From contig NZ_JAFKIC010000163.1 of NCBI RefSeq assembly GCF_017306585.1, positions 1 through 33,936 on the forward strand: a stretch of DNA of 33,936 bases, in the 5' to 3' direction. The notes beneath the pieces are model-generated. The model did no database searches and had not been told where the DNA came from. It saw nothing but the letters and a program-made list of their open reading frames with translations. Origin of the DNA: Mesorhizobium sp. (GTDB lineage: Bacteria; Pseudomonadota; Alphaproteobacteria; Rhizobiales; Rhizobiaceae). Positions 26,175-33,928 of the stretch are shown here, piece after piece. The position numbers and the translations under genes were made by a program. Within the stretch, counting starts at the first letter, position 1, and each line of letters begins with the position of its first letter.

Positions 26175-27152
26175 TCAGCCCCGGCGCAATCTGACCGGGG
26201 CTTCACCGAAAGCCCGTGAAAAAGCCCTCGAAAACGCCGCGGCGGACGAAAATCCGGTCCGCCCGGCAATGTCGGCCATCGCCACCCTTGTATCGACCAC
26301 GAGGCGCCGCGCAGCGCTGAGGCGCAGCCTGAGATAGTAGGCGCCCGGCGTTTCGCCGATCGACTTGCGAAAGATGCTCTCCAGGGTGCGCGCCGTGACA
26401 CCGGTGCGCTTTGCCACCGCTTCGATGGTGAGTGGCTGGTCGATATGCGATTCCATCAGCCGGATGGCCTGTGCCAGGCGCGGATCGTATCCGTCTAGCC
26501 GGCCGAGCGAGACCAGCGGCTGCGCATCGGTCGCCGCGCGGGCCTGGTCGTAGATGAAGACGCTGGCGACATCGAGCGCGGCCGCCATGCCGAGCCTTGT
26601 GCGCACGAGATGCAGCATCAGATCGAAGGTCGGCGAAGCGCCGCCGCAGGTGAAGACCGGCCCGTCGATCACATAGCGGTCCGGCCGCACGTCGACGCCC
26701 GGGAACGCCGCGGAAAAATCCTCCATGTCCTCCCAATGGGTGGTGGCGCTGCGGCCCTCCAACAGGCCAGCTCGCGCCACCAGCCAGGTGCCGGCCTCGA
26801 CACCGCCGCAGGCGCGGGCCGCGCGCGCCGCTCTCCGCAACCCCGCGAGCAGCGCCGATGTGGCATAATTCTGGGTGCCGAAACCGGCGACGACGACAAG
26901 GACGTCGGTCGGCTCGGCAGCATCGAAACGGCCGCTGACCGCGACAGGCAGGCCACACGTGGTGACCGGCGCCTCACCGGTCACCGAGACCAGCTTGAAG
27001 TCGAAGAGAATCTCGCCGGAGATGCGGTTGGCGGCGCGCAGGGGATCGACTGCCGATGCGACACACATGATGGACGAGCCGGAGAACACCAGGAATGTCA
27101 CCTTGAGTGTCTCGCGCTCCGGACGAAACACGGATCTTTCGCTTTTGATCAT
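26175..27152 (-). CDS. GlxA-family AraC-type regulator, CdhR-like
   Basis: A 325-residue transcription factor with an N-terminal DJ-1/PfpI-like ligand domain (TFLVFSGSSIMCVASAVDPL; VLVVVAGFG) and a C-terminal AraC helix-turn-helix domain (TIEAVAKRTGVTARTLESIF, then MADIAGRTGFSSAAAFSRAF). This architecture includes CdhR, the activator of carnitine catabolism in Pseudomonas, and GbdR of glycine betaine use. It is divergent from an operon for carnitine breakdown, so it probably activates that operon in response to carnitine or a related betaine. The frame is open for 87 codons upstream, but that part reads through the divergent promoter region; the ATG at 27152 has a GAAGG site. Confidence 0.88.
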   Translation of the reverse strand: MIKSERSVFRPERETLKVTFLVFSGSSIMCVASAVDPLRAANRISGEILFDFKLVSVTGEAPVTTCGLPVAVSGRFDAAEPTDVLVVVAGFGTQNYATSALLAGLRRAARAARACGGVEAGTWLVARAGLLEGRSATTHWEDMEDFSAAFPGVDVRPDRYVIDGPVFTCGGASPTFDLMLHLVRTRLGMAAALDVASVFIYDQARAATDAQPLVSLGRLDGYDPRLAQAIRLMESHIDQPLTIEAVAKRTGVTARTLESIFRKSIGETPGAYYLRLRLSAARRLVVDTRVAMADIAGRTGFSSAAAFSRAFSRAFGEAPVRLRRG

Positions 27153-27231
27153 ATCGCCTTCGTAAAACGCAAAGCAGTCGCGATCAAGTCGAGCGATGCT
27201 TGGCGCCTGTTTCGATTGGGAGGAGAATTCC
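27153..27231. promoter_or_regulatory. divergent promoter region of the carnitine/betaine operon
   Basis: These 79 bases separate the regulator gene from the first operon gene and should hold both promoters and the regulator site. GGGAGGAG at its right end is the ribosome-binding site of the BKACE gene. I see no clear inverted or direct repeat that would mark the operator. Confidence 0.5.
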
Positions 27232-28149
27232 ATGCCGCTTGCGATGAACCGCGAGGTTTTCATTACCTGTGCCGTGACCGGGTCCGGCGGTTCGCAGGAC
27301 CGCAGCCCGCATGTGCCGCGCTCCCCCAAGCAGATCGCCGATTCGGCGATCGACGCCGCCAAGGCGGGTGCGGCGATCGTCCATTGCCACGTGCGCGATC
27401 CCGAGACCGGCAAGCCCAGGCGTGATGTGCATCTCTACCGCGAGGTCACCGAGCGCATCCGCGACGCCAATGTCGACGTGGTGCTCAACCTCACCGCCGG
27501 CATGGGCGGCGACATGGTGTTCGGCTCGCCGGAAGCGCCGCTGCCGCTCAACGAGAAGGGCACCGACATGGGTGGCGCCACCAACCGCATGGAGCATGTG
27601 CGCCAGTGCCTGCCTGAAATCTGCACGCTCGACTGCGGTACGATGAATTTCGCCGAGGCCGACTATGTCATGACCAACACGCCCGGCATGCTGCGCGCCA
27701 TGGGCGGCATGATGACGGCGCTGGGCGTCAAGCCCGAGATCGAGGCCTTCGACACCGGCCATCTCTGGTTCGCCAAGCAGCTGGTCGAGGAGAAGGTGCT
27801 GAACGCCGATGCGCTGGTGCAGCTCTGCATGGGCGTGCCGTGGGGTGCGCCCGACGACCTCAACACCTTCATGGCCATGGTCAACAACGTGCCCTCGACC
27901 TGGAACTGGTCGGCCTTCTCCATCGGCCGCAACCAGATGGCTTATGCCGCAGCGGCGGTGCTGGCCGGTGGCAATGTCCGCGTCGGGCTGGAAGACAATC
28001 TCTGGCTCGACAAGGGCGTGCTCGCCACCAATGCGCAGCTCGTCGAACGCGCCGCCTCGATCGTGACCAATCTCGGCGCCAGGGTCATCGGGCCGGAGGA
28101 AGTGCGCAAGAAACTCAACCTGACCAAGCGGGCGCCGATAGCTGCATAA
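27232..28149 (+). CDS. BKACE-family enzyme, probable 3-dehydrocarnitine cleavage enzyme
   Basis: A 305-residue member of the beta-keto acid cleavage enzyme (BKACE, formerly DUF849) family, a zinc-dependent TIM barrel that uses acetyl-CoA to cleave beta-keto acids. The zinc-binding HCHVRD motif lies near residues 51-56, and LDCGTMNFAEADYV and VGLEDNLW are family stretches. Next to a carnitine 3-dehydrogenase, the likely reaction is 3-dehydrocarnitine plus acetyl-CoA to glycine betaine (trimethylated) plus acetoacetyl-CoA, as for CdhC of Pseudomonas. Specificity within this large family depends on a few pocket residues, so the substrate rests on context. A GGGAGGAG site fixes the ATG at 27232. 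It is the first gene of the operon. Confidence 0.9.
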   Translation: MPLAMNREVFITCAVTGSGGSQDRSPHVPRSPKQIADSAIDAAKAGAAIVHCHVRDPETGKPRRDVHLYREVTERIRDANVDVVLNLTAGMGGDMVFGSPEAPLPLNEKGTDMGGATNRMEHVRQCLPEICTLDCGTMNFAEADYVMTNTPGMLRAMGGMMTALGVKPEIEAFDTGHLWFAKQLVEEKVLNADALVQLCMGVPWGAPDDLNTFMAMVNNVPSTWNWSAFSIGRNQMAYAAAAVLAGGNVRVGLEDNLWLDKGVLATNAQLVERAASIVTNLGARVIGPEEVRKKLNLTKRAPIAA

Positions 28150-28173: not shown

Positions 28174-28803
28174 ATGACGTCAGTCAAGTTCACCGCGATG
28201 AAGGACGGCGACAAGGAAGACTACGAATTCCTGACCGCCCATGAGATCGACTATGCCGCCAAGACCGGCGACCGGCTGCTGGATGCGCTTGTCCAGCTCG
28301 ACGAAGGTCTGTCCGGCTACAAGATCACCCGGCTCGGCCACTCGCTCCAGGCGGCGACGCGCGCCTGGCGCGACGGCGCCGACACCGACTGGATCGCCTG
28401 CGCGCTGCTGCACGACATCGGCGACATCTACGCGCCCTACAATCACGACGAATACGCCGCCTCGATCCTGAAGCCCTTCGTGCGCGAGCAATGCACCTGG
28501 GTGGTGGAAAAGCACGGCGACTTCCAGCGGCTCTATTACGCCCATCATCTCGGCGGCAATCGCCATGCGCGAGACCGTTTCGCCGGCCACGCCTATTTCG
28601 ACGACTGCGACCAGTTCTGCGAACGCTGGGACCAGTCGAGCTTCGATCCAGACTACGAGACGCTGCCGATAGAGTTCTTCCGGCCCTTCGTGCTCGAAGT
28701 CTTCGCCCGCAAGGCCTACGACCCGGCGGTGATCCGCGCCGGCGAGCGCGTGCCCCTCATCGATCCCCAGACAGCCAAGACAAGAACCGGAGCTTCCGCA
28801 TGA
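28174..28803 (+). CDS. HD-domain protein, possible hydrolase or di-iron oxygenase
   Basis: A 209-residue soluble protein with a full set of HD-domain metal ligands: H56 in RLGHSLQAA, H80-D81 in LLHDIGD, H91 in YNHDEY, H114 in EKHGDF and D153 in ERWDQSSFDP. The H...HD...H...H...D order, the GHSLQAA opening and RWD-x4-DP are reminiscent of PhnZ and TmpB, mixed-valent di-iron oxygenases that cleave hydroxy-phosphonates. However, the Lys that PhnZ carries four residues after its last histidine ligand is absent (Gln118 here), and the MIOX Lys after HD is also missing. An ordinary phosphohydrolase remains possible. The gene has a strong GGGGAGGAGG site and overlaps the dehydrogenase start by four bases, so it belongs to the operon. 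Its reaction is unknown. Confidence 0.85.
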   Translation: MTSVKFTAMKDGDKEDYEFLTAHEIDYAAKTGDRLLDALVQLDEGLSGYKITRLGHSLQAATRAWRDGADTDWIACALLHDIGDIYAPYNHDEYAASILKPFVREQCTWVVEKHGDFQRLYYAHHLGGNRHARDRFAGHAYFDDCDQFCERWDQSSFDPDYETLPIEFFRPFVLEVFARKAYDPAVIRAGERVPLIDPQTAKTRTGASA

Positions 28804-29903
28804 GCATCATCAACAAGGCAGCCGCCATCGGCGGCGGTGTCATCGGCGCCGGCTGGGTCGCGCGCCTGCTGCTTAACGGCATCGACGTGGCGATCTTCGA
28901 TCCCGATCCCGAGGCGTCGCGCAAGGTTTCGGAAGTGATGAAGGGCGCGCGCCGGGCCTACAAGCAGATGGTGCCGGGCGGGCTTCCCAAGGAAGGCAAG
29001 CTGACCTTCGCCAAGACCATCGCCGAGGCGGTGGCCGATGCCGACTTCATCCAGGAAAGCGTGCCGGAGCGTCTCGACCTCAAGCACAAGGTGCTGGCCG
29101 AGATCGACGCCCACGCGCCGGCCAATGCCATTGTCGGTTCCTCCACCTCCGGCATCAAACCGACCGACATGCAGGTGGCGATGAAGAAGCATCCGGAGCG
29201 GCTGGTCGTGGGCCATCCGTTCAACCCGGTCTATCTCCTGCCGCTGGTCGAGATCGTCGCCGGCGACCAGACCTTCCCCGAAGCGGTCGAGGTCGCCAAG
29301 GAAATCTATGCCTCTATCGGCATGAAGCCGGTCGTCATCCGCAAGGAGATCGAGGCCTTCGTCGGCGACCGCCTGCTCGAGGCGGCATGGCGCGAGGCGC
29401 TGTGGCTGATCAAGGACGGCATCTGCACGGTCGAGGAACTCGACGACATCATGCGCTACGGCTTTGGCCTGCGCTGGGCGCAGATGGGCATGTTCCAGGT
29501 CTATCGCGTCGCCGGCGGCGAAGCCGGCATGCGCCACTTCATGGCCCAGTTCGGACCCTGCCTGAAATGGCCGTGGACCAAGCTGATGGACGTGCCGGAG
29601 TTCAATGACGAACTGGTCGACCTCATCGCCACCCAGTCTGACGATCAGGCGTATGGCCTCTCGATCCGTGAGCTGGAAAAGATCCGCGACGACAATCTGG
29701 TCGCGATCATGGATGCGCTGTCCAAGCAGAACAAGGGCAAGGGCTGGGGCGCCGGCGCGCTGCACAAGGACTACACCAGGCAGCTCGCCAAGCTGGCGGC
29801 GAAGAAGCCGGTGGCGTCAAAGGCGGCCGAGAAGGCCAAGGCAGGCAAGCCGGTGAAGAAAGCCGAAAAGCCGAAGAAGAAGACCGGCAAGAAGAAGGGC
29901 TGA
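28800..29903 (+). CDS. carnitine 3-dehydrogenase with lysine-rich C-terminal tail
   Basis: A 367-residue NAD-dependent enzyme of the 3-hydroxyacyl-CoA dehydrogenase superfamily, predicted to oxidise L-carnitine to 3-dehydrocarnitine. The Rossmann fingerprint GGGVIGAGW is near residues 12-20, followed by IFDPDPEA; SSTSGIKPTDMQ and VVGHPFNPVYLLPLVEIV form the active-site region. The catalytic part ends near residue 325. The last 37 residues or so are rich in Lys, Ala and Pro (about 15 Lys), like a histone H1 tail. Sinorhizobium homologues instead carry a C-terminal thioesterase domain, and Pseudomonas enzymes end at about 320 residues. The ATG at 28800 overlaps the HD gene stop (ATGA), so translation is probably coupled. 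Confidence 0.9.
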   Translation: MSIINKAAAIGGGVIGAGWVARLLLNGIDVAIFDPDPEASRKVSEVMKGARRAYKQMVPGGLPKEGKLTFAKTIAEAVADADFIQESVPERLDLKHKVLAEIDAHAPANAIVGSSTSGIKPTDMQVAMKKHPERLVVGHPFNPVYLLPLVEIVAGDQTFPEAVEVAKEIYASIGMKPVVIRKEIEAFVGDRLLEAAWREALWLIKDGICTVEELDDIMRYGFGLRWAQMGMFQVYRVAGGEAGMRHFMAQFGPCLKWPWTKLMDVPEFNDELVDLIATQSDDQAYGLSIRELEKIRDDNLVAIMDALSKQNKGKGWGAGALHKDYTRQLAKLAAKKPVASKAAEKAKAGKPVKKAEKPKKKTGKKKG

Positions 29904-29907
29904 GAGC

Positions 29908-31071
29908 ATGGATTTCGGTCTGTCGGAAGAACAGAAGCTCATCGTCGAGACGACACGCGCCTTCGTCGAAAACGAGCTCTACCCGCATGAACGCGAGGTG
30001 GAACGCACCGGCGTTCTGCGCCGCGATTTGATCGAAGAGCTCAAGGCCAAGGCCATTGAGGCCGGTCTCTACGCCGCCAACATGCCGGCCGATGTCGGCG
30101 GCGCGGGGCTCGATACGGTGACCTGGCTGCTCTACGAGAAGGAACTCGGCCGCGCCAATTACGCGCTGCACTGGACCTGCGTGGCGCGCCCCTCCAACAT
30201 CCTGCTCGCCGGCACGCCGGAGCAGCGCGAAAAATACCTGTTCCCTTGCATACGCGGCGAGAAATGGGATTGCCTGGCGATGACCGAGCCGGGCGCCGGG
30301 TCCGACCTGCGCGGCATGAAGGCATCAGCTGTGCAGGACGGCGACGACTGGGTGCTGAACGGCACCAAGCACTTCATCAGCCATGCCGACCTCGCCGATT
30401 TCGCCATCGTGTTCATGGCTTCAGGCGAGGAAGAGACCTCGCGTGGAAAGCGCAAGAAGATCACCGCCTTCTTCGTCGACAAGGGCACCAAGGGATTTAC
30501 GGTGCGTGACGGCTATCGCAACGTTTCGCATCGCGGCTACACCAACGCCATTCTCGAATTCGACGACTGCCGGTTGCCGGCCTCACAGGTGCTTGGCGAG
30601 GTCCACAAGGGTTTCGACGTTGCCAATTCCTGGCTCGGCGCCACGCGCCTGCAGGTTGGCGCCACCTGTCTCGGCCGCGCCGAGCGGGCGCTTGGTCATG
30701 CCATCGAATATGCCGCGCAGCGCCAACAGTTCGGCCAGCAGATCGGCAAGTTCCAGGGCGTCTCGTTCAAGCTCGCCGACATGGCGACGGAGCTGAAGGC
30801 CGCCGACCTGATGGTCTTCGAAGCCGGCTGGAAGTACGATCAGGGCACCGTCACCGACCAGGACATGGCGATGGCCAAGCTCAAGGCCACCGAAATGCTG
30901 GCTTACGTTGCCGACGAGGCCATCCAGATCCACGGCGGCATGGGGCTGATGGACGACTTGCCGCTGGAGCGTATCTGGCGTGATGCGCGCGTCGAGCGTA
31001 TCTGGGAAGGCACGTCGGAAATCCAGCGTCACATCATTTCGCGGGCGCTGCTGCGCCCGTTCGGAGCCTGA
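29908..31071 (+). CDS. acyl-CoA dehydrogenase, probable gamma-butyrobetainyl-CoA dehydrogenase
   Basis: A 387-residue FAD-dependent acyl-CoA dehydrogenase of normal length. The N-terminal LSEEQKLIVETTRAFVENEL, the signature MTEPGAGSDL, the flavin-side QQFGQQIGKFQ and the C-terminal IHGGMGLMDDLPLERIWRD are all present. The catalytic Glu is expected at E367 in WEGTSEIQR. With a CoA ligase and a CaiD-like hydratase following, it could oxidise gamma-butyrobetainyl-CoA to crotonobetainyl-CoA, the reverse of CaiA in enteric bacteria. The substrate is inferred from neighbours. It starts four bases after the carnitine dehydrogenase stop and ends three bases before the ligase gene. Confidence 0.92.
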   Translation: MDFGLSEEQKLIVETTRAFVENELYPHEREVERTGVLRRDLIEELKAKAIEAGLYAANMPADVGGAGLDTVTWLLYEKELGRANYALHWTCVARPSNILLAGTPEQREKYLFPCIRGEKWDCLAMTEPGAGSDLRGMKASAVQDGDDWVLNGTKHFISHADLADFAIVFMASGEEETSRGKRKKITAFFVDKGTKGFTVRDGYRNVSHRGYTNAILEFDDCRLPASQVLGEVHKGFDVANSWLGATRLQVGATCLGRAERALGHAIEYAAQRQQFGQQIGKFQGVSFKLADMATELKAADLMVFEAGWKYDQGTVTDQDMAMAKLKATEMLAYVADEAIQIHGGMGLMDDLPLERIWRDARVERIWEGTSEIQRHIISRALLRPFGA

Positions 31072-31074
31072 TTC

Positions 31075-33153
31075 ATGCATAAACTTGAGCGTCTCCTGCG
31101 GCCGAAATCGATTGCCGTCTTCGGCGGGGTACAAGCCGCCGCTGTGGTCGCGCAGTCGATCAAGATGGGTTTTGCCGGCGAGATCTGGCCGGTGCACCCG
31201 ACCAAGGACGAGGTCGCCGGCCGCAAGGCCTATCGTTCCGTGGCCGACCTGCCCGGCGCGCCGGACGCCGCTTTCGTCGGCGTCAACCGGCATCTGACCA
31301 TCGAGGTGATCAAGGCGCTGGCCGAGCGTGGCGCGGGCGGCGCCGTCTGCTTCGCCGCCGGCTTTCTCGAAACGGAAGCCTATGACGACGATGGCGAACG
31401 GCTGCAGGCCGAGCTCGTCGCCGCCGCCGGCCAGATGCCGATCATCGGTCCGAATTGCTACGGCCTGATCAACTATGCCGACGGCGCGCTTTTGTGGCCC
31501 GACCAGCATGGCGGCATCCGGCTGGAGGAGGGCGGCAAGGGCGTCGCCATCATCACCCAGTCCTCCAACATCGCCATCAACATGACGATGCAGAAGCGCG
31601 GCTTGCCGATCGCCTTCCTGATGACGGCGGGCAACCAGGCCCAGACCGGCCTTTCCGAAATGGCGCTCGGCCTGATCGAGGACGAGCGCGTCACATCGCT
31701 CGGCCTGCACATCGAGGCGTTCGACTCGGTAGCCGGCTTCGAAAGGCTCGCGGCACGCGCCCGGGAGCTGAAGAAGCCGATCATCGCCATGAAGGTCGGC
31801 CGTTCCGAGCAGGCGCGGCAGGCGACGGTGTCGCATACGGCATCGCTTGCCGGATCGGACGCAGCGTCCGGCGCCTTCCTGAAACGGCTTGGCATTGCGC
31901 GCGTCGATTCCATTCCCGCCTTCATCGAGGCGCTGAAACTGCTGCATATCACCGGCCCGCTGCCCGGTTATAAACTGTCATCGATGAGCTGCTCGGGCGG
32001 CGAGGCTTCGGTCATGGCCGACAGCGCGGAGGGGCGCTGGGTGCACTTCCCCGCCCTGACCGAGCAGCATCGCGCCCATGTCAAGTCGACGCTCGGGCCG
32101 CTGGTAGCGGTCGCCAATCCGCTCGACTATCACACTTTCATCTGGAACAACGAGCCGGCGATGACCGCAACCTTCACCGCCATGGTGTCGGGTGGTTTCG
32201 ACCTCAACATGCTGGTGCTCGACTTTCCGCGCCCCGACCGCTGCTCGGTCACCGACTGGTGGGCGACCCTGCGCGCCTTCGAATCGGCGCTGAAGACCAA
32301 CAAGGCGCATGGCGCCATCGTCTCCTCGCTGCCGGAGAACCTGCCGGAAGAATATACGGCCGAGCTGATGGCGCGCGGCATGGTGCCACTGTTTGGCATT
32401 TCCGAGGCCATGGACGCCGCCCAGGCGGCAGCCTTCATCGGCTGGGCATGGCGCGAGCCGCAGGCTCAGCCGGTCGACACGACGGCGGCGGGCGGATCCG
32501 ACTCCAGGCGCGTGACGCCCGACGAAGCCGAGGCAAAAAGCAGGCTGATCAAGGCCGGCCTGCCGGTGCCGAAGGGTGAGCGCGCCGGCAATGCCGTCGA
32601 GGCGGTGATCTCGTCCATGACGCTGGGCTTCCCGGTGGCGCTGAAGGCACTGGGCGTCGCGCACAAGTCGGAAGTCGGTGCCGTCAGGCTGAACCTCAAG
32701 GATGCCGAGTCCGTCAGCGCCGCCGCGCATGACCTTTTGCCGCTGGGCACGGGCCTCTACGCGGAGCGCATGGTCCGCGACGGCGTCGCCGAACTGATCG
32801 TCGGCTTTACCCGCGACCCGATGTTCGGCGTGGTCATGACCCTCGGCACCGGCGGCGTTTTGGTCGAGTTGCTGCGTGACAGCGTGACCCTGATGCTGCC
32901 GGCGAGCCGTGACGATATCGAGGCGGCGTTGCGCGGCCTGAAGCTGTTCCCGCTGCTCGAAGGCTATCGCGGCCGGCCGAAAGCCGACGTCAAGGCGGCC
33001 ATCGACGCCATATCGGGCATTGCCGACTTCGTACAGAAGAATGCCGGCGAGATCGAGGAACTCGACATCAACCCGCTGATCGTCTGCGCCGAAGGCAAGG
33101 GCGCCTGGATCGCCGACGCCCTGCTCGTGCTTGGAGAAAACAAGAATGTCTGA
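31075..33153 (+). CDS. ADP-forming acyl-CoA ligase (fused alpha-beta)
   Basis: A 692-residue protein of the acetate-CoA ligase (ADP-forming) family. It has a CoA-binding Rossmann domain (KSIAVFGGVQAAAVVAQSI), a succinyl-CoA synthetase-like ligase region with GPNCYG at 125-130, and a C-terminal ATP-grasp domain (FPVALKALGVAHKSEVGAV; TLGTGGVLVELLRD; ELDINPLIVC). The probable phospho-histidine is H254 in SHTASLAGSD. It should couple acyl-CoA formation to ATP, ADP and phosphate reversibly. Here the likely acids are gamma-butyrobetaine, crotonobetaine or carnitine, a role played in enteric bacteria by the AMP-forming CaiC and CoA-transferase CaiB. The stop overlaps the hydratase gene by eight bases. 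Confidence 0.9.
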   Translation: MHKLERLLRPKSIAVFGGVQAAAVVAQSIKMGFAGEIWPVHPTKDEVAGRKAYRSVADLPGAPDAAFVGVNRHLTIEVIKALAERGAGGAVCFAAGFLETEAYDDDGERLQAELVAAAGQMPIIGPNCYGLINYADGALLWPDQHGGIRLEEGGKGVAIITQSSNIAINMTMQKRGLPIAFLMTAGNQAQTGLSEMALGLIEDERVTSLGLHIEAFDSVAGFERLAARARELKKPIIAMKVGRSEQARQATVSHTASLAGSDAASGAFLKRLGIARVDSIPAFIEALKLLHITGPLPGYKLSSMSCSGGEASVMADSAEGRWVHFPALTEQHRAHVKSTLGPLVAVANPLDYHTFIWNNEPAMTATFTAMVSGGFDLNMLVLDFPRPDRCSVTDWWATLRAFESALKTNKAHGAIVSSLPENLPEEYTAELMARGMVPLFGISEAMDAAQAAAFIGWAWREPQAQPVDTTAAGGSDSRRVTPDEAEAKSRLIKAGLPVPKGERAGNAVEAVISSMTLGFPVALKALGVAHKSEVGAVRLNLKDAESVSAAAHDLLPLGTGLYAERMVRDGVAELIVGFTRDPMFGVVMTLGTGGVLVELLRDSVTLMLPASRDDIEAALRGLKLFPLLEGYRGRPKADVKAAIDAISGIADFVQKNAGEIEELDINPLIVCAEGKGAWIADALLVLGENKNV

Positions 33154-33928
33154 TGTCATTTCGACCCGCCGCGAGGGCTCGATCCTCGAAGTCACGCTCG
33201 ACCGCCCCAAGGCGAATGCCATCGACCTCAAGACGTCGCGGCTGATGGGCGAAACGTTCAAGGCGTTCCGCGACGATCCGGACCTGCGCGTCGCCATCGT
33301 CAAGACCGCCGGCGACAAGTTCTTCTGCGCCGGCTGGGACCTCAAGGCCGCCGCCGGCGGCGATGCGGTCGACGGCGACTATGGCGTCGGCGGTTTCGCC
33401 GGCCTGCAGGAACTGCGTGACCTCAACAAGCCGGTCATCGCCTGCGTCAACGGCATGGCGGTGGGCGGCGGTTTCGAGCTGGCGCTCTCCTGCGACCTCA
33501 TCTACGCCTCGGACCATTCCTCCTTCGCGCTGCCCGAGATCCGCGCCGGCACGCTCGCCGATGCCGCGACGATCAAACTGCCCAAGCGCATTCCCTACCA
33601 TGTCGCCATGGACCTGCTGCTCACCGGCCGCTGGATGGATGTCGCCGAGGCGCATCGCTGGGGCCTGGTCAACGAGGTGTTGCCCAAGGAGAAACTCGAG
33701 GACCGCGTCTGGGAGATCGCTCGCCTGCTCGCCGGTGGCCCGCCGCTGGTCTTCGCCGCCATCAAGGAGACCGCGCGAGCGGCGGAGGCGCTGACTTTCC
33801 AGGACGCAATGAACAAGGTGACACGCCGTCAGCTCGCGACCGTCGATGCGCTCTACGGTTCCGAAGACAATATGGAAGGGTTCCGGGCGTTTGCCGAGAA
33901 GCGCGACCCGGTGTGGAAGGGGAAGTGA
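33146..33928 (+). CDS. CaiD-like crotonobetainyl-CoA hydratase
   Basis: A 260-residue crotonase-fold enzyme very like CaiD of Escherichia coli (about 261 residues): GWDLKAAAGG, VGGFAGLQEL, AVGGGFELALSCD and the C-terminal AFAEKRDPVWKG all match my memory of CaiD. The two acidic residues of the crotonase site are at E111 and E131, with the 20-residue spacing of classical enoyl-CoA hydratase. It should hydrate crotonobetainyl-CoA to L-carnitinyl-CoA. The ATG at 33146, with a GGAG site before it, lies inside the end of the ligase gene. It is the last gene seen; a carnitinyl-CoA thioesterase or transporter could lie beyond the window edge. Confidence 0.9.
   Translation: MSDVISTRREGSILEVTLDRPKANAIDLKTSRLMGETFKAFRDDPDLRVAIVKTAGDKFFCAGWDLKAAAGGDAVDGDYGVGGFAGLQELRDLNKPVIACVNGMAVGGGFELALSCDLIYASDHSSFALPEIRAGTLADAATIKLPKRIPYHVAMDLLLTGRWMDVAEAHRWGLVNEVLPKEKLEDRVWEIARLLAGGPPLVFAAIKETARAAEALTFQDAMNKVTRRQLATVDALYGSEDNMEGFRAFAEKRDPVWKGK

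Follow-up and report, generated by a model that had tools for sequence, protein, structure and literature searches.

An HD-domain protein of a Mesorhizobium carnitine operon as a candidate member of a third HD-oxygenase branch

We analysed a stretch of Mesorhizobium DNA of 33,936 nucleotides (contig NZ_JAFKIC010000163.1, called the window below; contig C211 of the genome G000), in which the gene P0001, inside a carnitine operon, encodes a protein with an HD domain. On the best reading of the sequence comparisons, the P0001 family would be a third, uncharacterised HD-oxygenase branch, sister to PhnZ/TmpB and with a rebuilt pocket. In Mesorhizobium, again as the best reading, P0001 is an accessory gene: many relatives have the carnitine operon and lack this gene in it. 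We put the probability of the whole explanation, including a hydroxylated trimethylammonium carboxylate as substrate, at about 0.5. The sequence, the predicted fold, the ligands, the replaced residues, the phylogeny and the gene order come directly from the data, and from them we infer the di-iron site, the O2 chemistry, the substrate and the product.

A 2020 review lists three HD-domain oxygenases, MIOX, PhnZ and TmpB. A 2023 review adds a PhnZ of the methylphosphonate type and, from fungi, a PhnY-PhnZ fusion; these act on phosphonates. Nothing naming the P0001 family was found in a literature search, a weak negative as the two most relevant primary papers lay outside its coverage. If the explanation is true, a widespread branch with the same ligands and a rebuilt pocket would extend HD-oxygenase chemistry past phosphonates and inositol, would reveal residues dividing oxygenases from hydrolases within the HD superfamily, and would suggest a step not yet recognised in how bacteria metabolise carnitine, choline and betaine.

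Metal ligands, fold and substrate-side residues

A sequence-only reading of the window had described an open reading frame (ORF) with six metal ligands (H56, H80, D81, H91, H114, D153) and an RWD-x4-DP motif, translationally coupled to carnitine dehydrogenase (CDH). The ORF, its coordinates and these residues were all as described, the RWD-x4-DP stretch being R151-W152-D153...D158-P159. The coupling was borne out as well: the stop codon of P0001 (TGA, 28801-28803) and the start codon of CDH (ATG, 28800-28802) overlap as ATGA (28800-28803). A GGAGG lies directly 5′ of the P0001 ATG.

P0001 was aligned with 44 relatives (30-95% identical to it) and with 20 proteins of PhnZ/TmpB type that TIGR03276 retrieved, 7 of which exceed the cut-off of that model. 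The six ligands are invariant in both sets. The pattern H..HD..H..H..D of the HD di-iron oxygenases is thus present in 45/45 family sequences, and also in all 81 Mesorhizobium sequences, where 15 checked positions, ligands included, are identical. The median dN/dS of the window gene against 80 Mesorhizobium orthologues is 0.07 (80 pairs), and P0001 is under purifying selection. Because of this value and the invariance of the ligands, the pattern is beyond chance.

P0001 belongs to the HD superfamily: it matches PF01966 (HD) with 23.5 bits, over the cut-off of 22, and its HD dyad lies in a helical HD fold in the predicted model and the fold search. Structure comparison with PhnZ, TmpB and MIOX, and a phylogeny of HD-fold oxygenases, had been suggested as checks of a PhnZ/TmpB-like oxygenase idea. 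PhnZ and TmpB were the closest solved structures in profile, Foldseek and VIA Z comparisons, with TmpB second by profile and VIA Z, and solved phosphohydrolases ranked far below (next profile E-value 0.1, Foldseek 0.1, VIA Z 7.4). P0001 missed the NCBIfam cut-offs for PhnZ/TmpB (TIGR03276, 33.1 against 214.6 bits; NF049941, 22.6 against 300; NF052439, 28.2 against 300) and that of Pfam MIOX (PF05153, 18.8 against 25). In a tree of 111 proteins, a 100/100 branch parts the 20 PhnZ/TmpB rows from 91 family rows, and P0001 is not inside the PhnZ/TmpB clade. The earlier idea is partly supported: PhnZ/TmpB is closest in fold and shares the six ligands with P0001, which falls outside the clade itself and differs in the substrate-side residues described below. 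It is likely that P0001 belongs to an HD-oxygenase branch, and oxygenase chemistry is probable.

PhnZ, the (R)-2-amino-1-hydroxyethylphosphonate oxygenase (PDB 4n6w, 4n71, 4mlm, 4mln), is 26% identical to P0001 over the aligned part. In comparison, P0001 lacks the YxxE loop and the LSxAS..LQGG insertion, has HDIGD for HDxGH, Q for K108 and E for R158 (PhnZ numbering), an added R53, and no hydroxylase gene beside it in the window. These changes are general in the family. The E position of YxxE is Y, F or L in 45/45 family sequences versus E in 20/20 PhnZ/TmpB-type proteins (the Y position is L in P0001). The last residue of HDxGH is D in 41/45 (D84 in P0001) and E or K in the other four, versus H in 20/20. 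The HxxxK lysine, four residues after the second single histidine, had been noted as missing from P0001, and the alignment agrees: it is Q in 45/45 (Q118) versus K in 20/20. At the position of the arginine three before the last aspartate, R in 20/20, the family has E (27 of the 45; E150 in P0001), A (9), H (4), D (4) or R (1). The inserted loop of PhnZ/TmpB is absent from the family rows displayed. MIOX, the myo-inositol oxygenase (PDB 2huo, 2ibn), is 16% identical to P0001; its lysine (HDxGK), also said earlier to be missing, corresponds to D84 in P0001.

These changed substrate-side residues argue against a phosphonate substrate. R53 could bind a carboxylate instead, and with an aromatic residue at the amine-binding Glu position in 44/45, a quaternary ammonium group could sit there by cation-pi contacts.

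TmpB, the (R)-1-hydroxy-2-trimethylaminoethylphosphonate oxygenase (PDB 6npa), differs from P0001 in pocket residues and stands across the 100/100 branch. P0001 as a second TmpB, turning 1-hydroxy-2-trimethylaminoethylphosphonate into glycine betaine and phosphate, is highly improbable, even with TmpB so near in structure and with a hydroxylase over the TmpA cut-off coupled to one family member (L215, below). Its TmpB score is 22.6 bits for a cut-off of 300, substrate-side residues conserved in PhnZ/TmpB are changed, and the same genome has a TmpA-TmpB pair on another contig (C231:15931-17594; L287, L321), both genes over their NCBIfam cut-offs (TmpA 558.6/400, then TmpB 328.8/300).

Hydroxylase partners and the proposed reaction

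The strongest pointer to a second-step oxygenase is a clade of partner hydroxylases whose pairing appears to parallel that of TmpA with TmpB. In loci whose genes were called with an in-house caller, tblastn positions being forced, a 2-oxoglutarate hydroxylase lies immediately upstream of the HD gene in 10 of 92 sampled loci (91 and the window), and all ten were confirmed by Pfam. PhyH/TauD-type genes account for 10/94 adjacent same-strand genes, versus 0/89 adjacent opposite-strand genes and 3/1038 farther genes (Fisher p = 2e-9); the hidden Markov models (HMMs) used were built from HD-adjacent clusters, a bias by which distant hydroxylases may be under-detected elsewhere. The nearest PhyH-coupled relative, L176, is 75% identical to P0001. 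The TauD types score best with the TmpA model (L215 422.5, L188 356.3, L171 350.1, L340 347.5, L159 331.0, L189 317.7), and only L215 passes its cut-off of 400. For the six PhyH types the only matches are to chlorinating-enzyme and ectoine-hydroxylase models, far under cut-off.

In a 37-row tree of TmpA/GBBH-like proteins, one clade (100/98) holds the six hydroxylases found with the HD family, and another (fork 93/83) holds the 17 that neighbour a PhnZ/TmpB-type HD gene. L171 is counted with the family in the hydroxylase trees though two genes lie between its hydroxylase and the HD gene, and L215 is a long branch. Five of the six family-paired rows were picked for adjoining an HD gene; L296, the L188 gene as recovered in an unselected TmpA search, was removed as a duplicate. 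An HMM check of partners covered the 27 loci of the TmpA search, four from plasmids and six of the family. It gave a PhnZ/TmpB-type HD gene in 17 of them, a family-type one in 7 (L296 and L188 being one gene) and no such gene in the remaining 13, for which the sequence fetched reached about 1.5 kb to either side in 12 and 4 kb in L367. These 13, together with the second hydroxylase of L215, make up the 14 tree rows in neither group. This distinct TmpA-like clade, linked to the branch, offers concrete gene pairs for assay.

Several of these loci carry genes of trimethylammonium metabolism. In L340 (plasmid pF045_1) the TauD and HD genes are accompanied by a choline-binding protein over its cut-off, a choline dehydrogenase over the PRK02106 subfamily cut-off and under that of betA, and a BADH-like gene (425/669). 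L215 has OpuAC, a second hydroxylase closest to the gamma-butyrobetaine model, the beta-keto acid cleavage enzyme (BKACE) and CDH. L188 has GbcA-like (422/670), choline-dehydrogenase-like (579/605) and sarcosine-oxidase-like (123/529) genes. No clear trimethylammonium gene was found among the checked neighbours of L159 and L189.

The closeness of the partner hydroxylases to TmpA suggests that the substrate may be a betaine bearing a carboxylate rather than the phosphonate. In the proposed reaction, the hydroxyl and the neighbouring carboxylate of a small hydroxylated compound would bind Fe1 of a mixed-valent di-iron site and O2 would bind Fe2; the superoxo would take the carbinol hydrogen, and the bond beside the carbinol carbon would be cut without an external reductant, yielding a carboxylate. 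Most likely, a carnitine-related trimethylammonium carboxylate carrying a hydroxyl would be the substrate, and a shorter betaine, for instance glycine betaine, would be formed and enter the BKACE/CDH route. A trimethylammonium substrate in Mesorhizobium is possible, and we hold it tentatively.

A more specific version is doubtful: the family would supply the O2-dependent second enzyme of an undescribed counterpart of the TmpA/TmpB pathway, the group cleaved off being a carboxylate or carbon fragment instead of the phosphonate. In Mesorhizobium its substrate would be a carnitine-derived betaine carrying a hydroxyl. A betaine would first be hydroxylated by a TmpA-like or PhyH enzyme, and the HD oxygenase would cut beside the hydroxyl, leaving glycine betaine or some shorter betaine. 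As an example, 2-hydroxylation of beta-alanine betaine, which is the carboxylate isostere of 2-trimethylaminoethylphosphonate (TMAEP), might be followed by cleavage to glycine betaine and CO2. Carnitine catabolism in Mesorhizobium would in that case gain an oxygenolytic branch. As to a hydroxylase for the window, a TmpA search in G000 at E<=1e-60 returned only the true TmpA and one weaker gene that no model names clearly (249 bits with the TmpA model, 222 with the gamma-butyrobetaine model); the hydroxyl may already be on the carnitine-derived compound, or the hydroxylase may be encoded elsewhere.

Several points weigh against an oxygenase of this kind acting in carnitine metabolism. With the equivalents of YxxE, HDxGH, K108 and R158 replaced, the activity of PhnZ/TmpB would not be simply transferable to P0001. 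Carnitine is a beta-hydroxy acid, for which a PhnZ/MIOX-like chelate and leaving group are not obvious. Adjacent hydroxylases are lacking in 82/92 sampled loci, and the window has none next to P0001. BKACE is close to the HD gene in 1/89 sampled loci from outside Mesorhizobium (L215; the count omits L226 and L139, which are Mesorhizobium, and L227, a TmpB locus). The HD neighbours are diverse: M20 (four loci, below), M24 (L154, L164), EamA, MFS and class II aldolase. Finally, R53-x-x-H56 would be a phosphohydrolase mark according to the review PMC8177086, where YxxE marks PhnZ/TmpB and an Arg three before the first His marks phosphohydrolases. R53 is three residues N-terminal of H56, and its position is R in 43/45 family sequences, Q or M in the PhnZ/TmpB-type set; the sequence marks therefore conflict with the grouping by fold.

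A metal-dependent phosphohydrolase acting on a nucleotide or small phosphoester, with R53 for the phosphate, would account for this arginine and for the varied metabolic genes that the family adjoins. The six-ligand site would be kept as in YqeK, a di-metal HD hydrolase which, according to PMC8177086, shares with P0001 the HD motif, the arginine and H-HD-H-H-D. We consider it unlikely, given the distance in profile and fold from any solved phosphohydrolase and the recurrent hydroxylase partners. Most HD phosphohydrolases have a mononuclear H..HD..D site; both extra histidines are present in 45/45 family sequences.

Distribution and the carnitine operon

The family was found in 43/297 genomes of the order (E<=1e-10) and 59/398 of the phylum (E<=1e-8), own genus included. 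In Mesorhizobium, 128/146 genomes have an HD match (E<=1e-20), G785 only as a 70% copy, and 142/146 have CDH (E<=1e-120). The four genomes without CDH are also without HD, and 14 CDH-positive genomes lack HD. The order BKACE-HD-CDH is found in 80/80 Mesorhizobium loci, all fetched by HD. As the operon occurs without HD in two fully read Mesorhizobium genomes (L258, L259) and also in genera of the order other than Mesorhizobium, HD has been gained in it or lost from it by lineage. To the question of whether the gene always accompanies CDH, the answer is no: most of the sampled family loci from outside Mesorhizobium are not carnitine operons. In L140 and L141, which fall on a different branch of the family tree from P0001, a CDH-like enzyme is encoded directly upstream of HD (322 and 315 bits; the L-carnitine dehydrogenase model has a cut-off of 414), and the linkage to CDH would need at least two gains or losses on that tree.

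These data bear on whether P0001 is a hitch-hiker, an oxygenase of PhnZ type that acts on some unrelated hydroxylated compound and has only the carnitine promoter in common with the operon. The operon is otherwise conserved without HD, relatives occur in diverse contexts, and a family copy, 69-72% identical, lies elsewhere in 21/146 Mesorhizobium genomes (20 additional, G785 sole copy). We still regard this as rather improbable in view of the 0/4 CDH-less genomes with HD, of the constant gene order (though in loci selected by HD) and of the CDH-like neighbour on another branch.

The carnitine-operon setting proposed for the window was recovered, P0001 lying between BKACE and a carnitine 3-dehydrogenase-type enzyme (Table 1). 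A divergent regulator is followed by BKACE, HD, CDH, acyl-CoA dehydrogenase, ADP-forming-type acyl-CoA synthetase and a crotonobetainyl-CoA hydratase-like enzyme. The true start of the regulator is probably further in. Probable starts are ATG 27232 for BKACE, the listed ORFs of HD-less relatives beginning MPLAMN, and ATG 33146 for the hydratase-like gene.

Table 1. Features of the carnitine operon and of P0001 in the window
Feature	Position	Strand	Remark
AraC-family regulator, divergent	26175..27413	-	closest NCBIfam model GbdR, 206.7 bits, under cut-off 480
BKACE	27196..28149	+	
HD-domain protein P0001, putative HD-domain di-iron oxygenase	28174..28803	+	209 aa
R53 codon	28330-28332	+	
H56 codon, metal ligand	28339..28341	+	
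HD dyad H80-D81 codons	28411..28416	+	
H91 codon, metal ligand	28444..28446	+	
H114 codon, metal ligand	28513..28515	+	
Q118 codon	28525-28527	+	at PhnZ/TmpB lysine position
D153 codon, metal ligand	28630..28632	+	
Carnitine 3-dehydrogenase (CDH)	28800..29903	+	PRK07531, 592 bits, exactly the model cut-off
Acyl-CoA dehydrogenase	29908..31071	+	
ADP-forming-type acyl-CoA synthetase	31075..33153	+	CoA-binding, Succ_CoA_lig, ATP-grasp domains
Crotonobetainyl-CoA hydratase-like enoyl-CoA hydratase	33131..33928	+	318.6 bits, under cut-off 500

The window CDH covers only positions 1-336 of the 495-position fused model, a Lys-rich tail replacing the C-terminal thioesterase part that is present in other rhizobia (L264-L270, versus L258-L263 and L271 without it). 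No thioesterase family was found among the scanned operon genes; one idea is that the ADP-forming-type synthetase could release glycine betaine in this operon by running backwards. P0001, directly beside the truncated CDH, might instead replace the missing betainyl-CoA thioesterase, both steps being performed by CDH in Sinorhizobium according to PMC12482172. We find this very unlikely: unfused CDH also occurs without an operon HD in L258 and L259, with no family member in the genome, and in L260-L263 and L271, a counterpoint softened by two of these last five genomes (G006, G029) carrying a family gene elsewhere. Moreover, we know of no HD-fold thioesterase.

Further observations concern single loci. 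In the HD-less operons of L258 and L259, an insertion between the acyl-CoA dehydrogenase and acyl-CoA synthetase genes consists of an ORF with no assigned function, of 242 aa in L258 and with a listed length of 285 aa in L259. The HD match is in two frames in G695:C12 and stops at residue 138 in G701:C22; some strains may thus be able to do without the gene. In L139 the family copy lies outside the carnitine operon. An M20 amidohydrolase is beside HD in L143, L146, L148 and L150 (L143 and L146 scanned), CpsA/DoeB2-like in L146, and L150 also has an agmatinase-like gene beside HD; these four members lie in one clade and suggest a different substrate.
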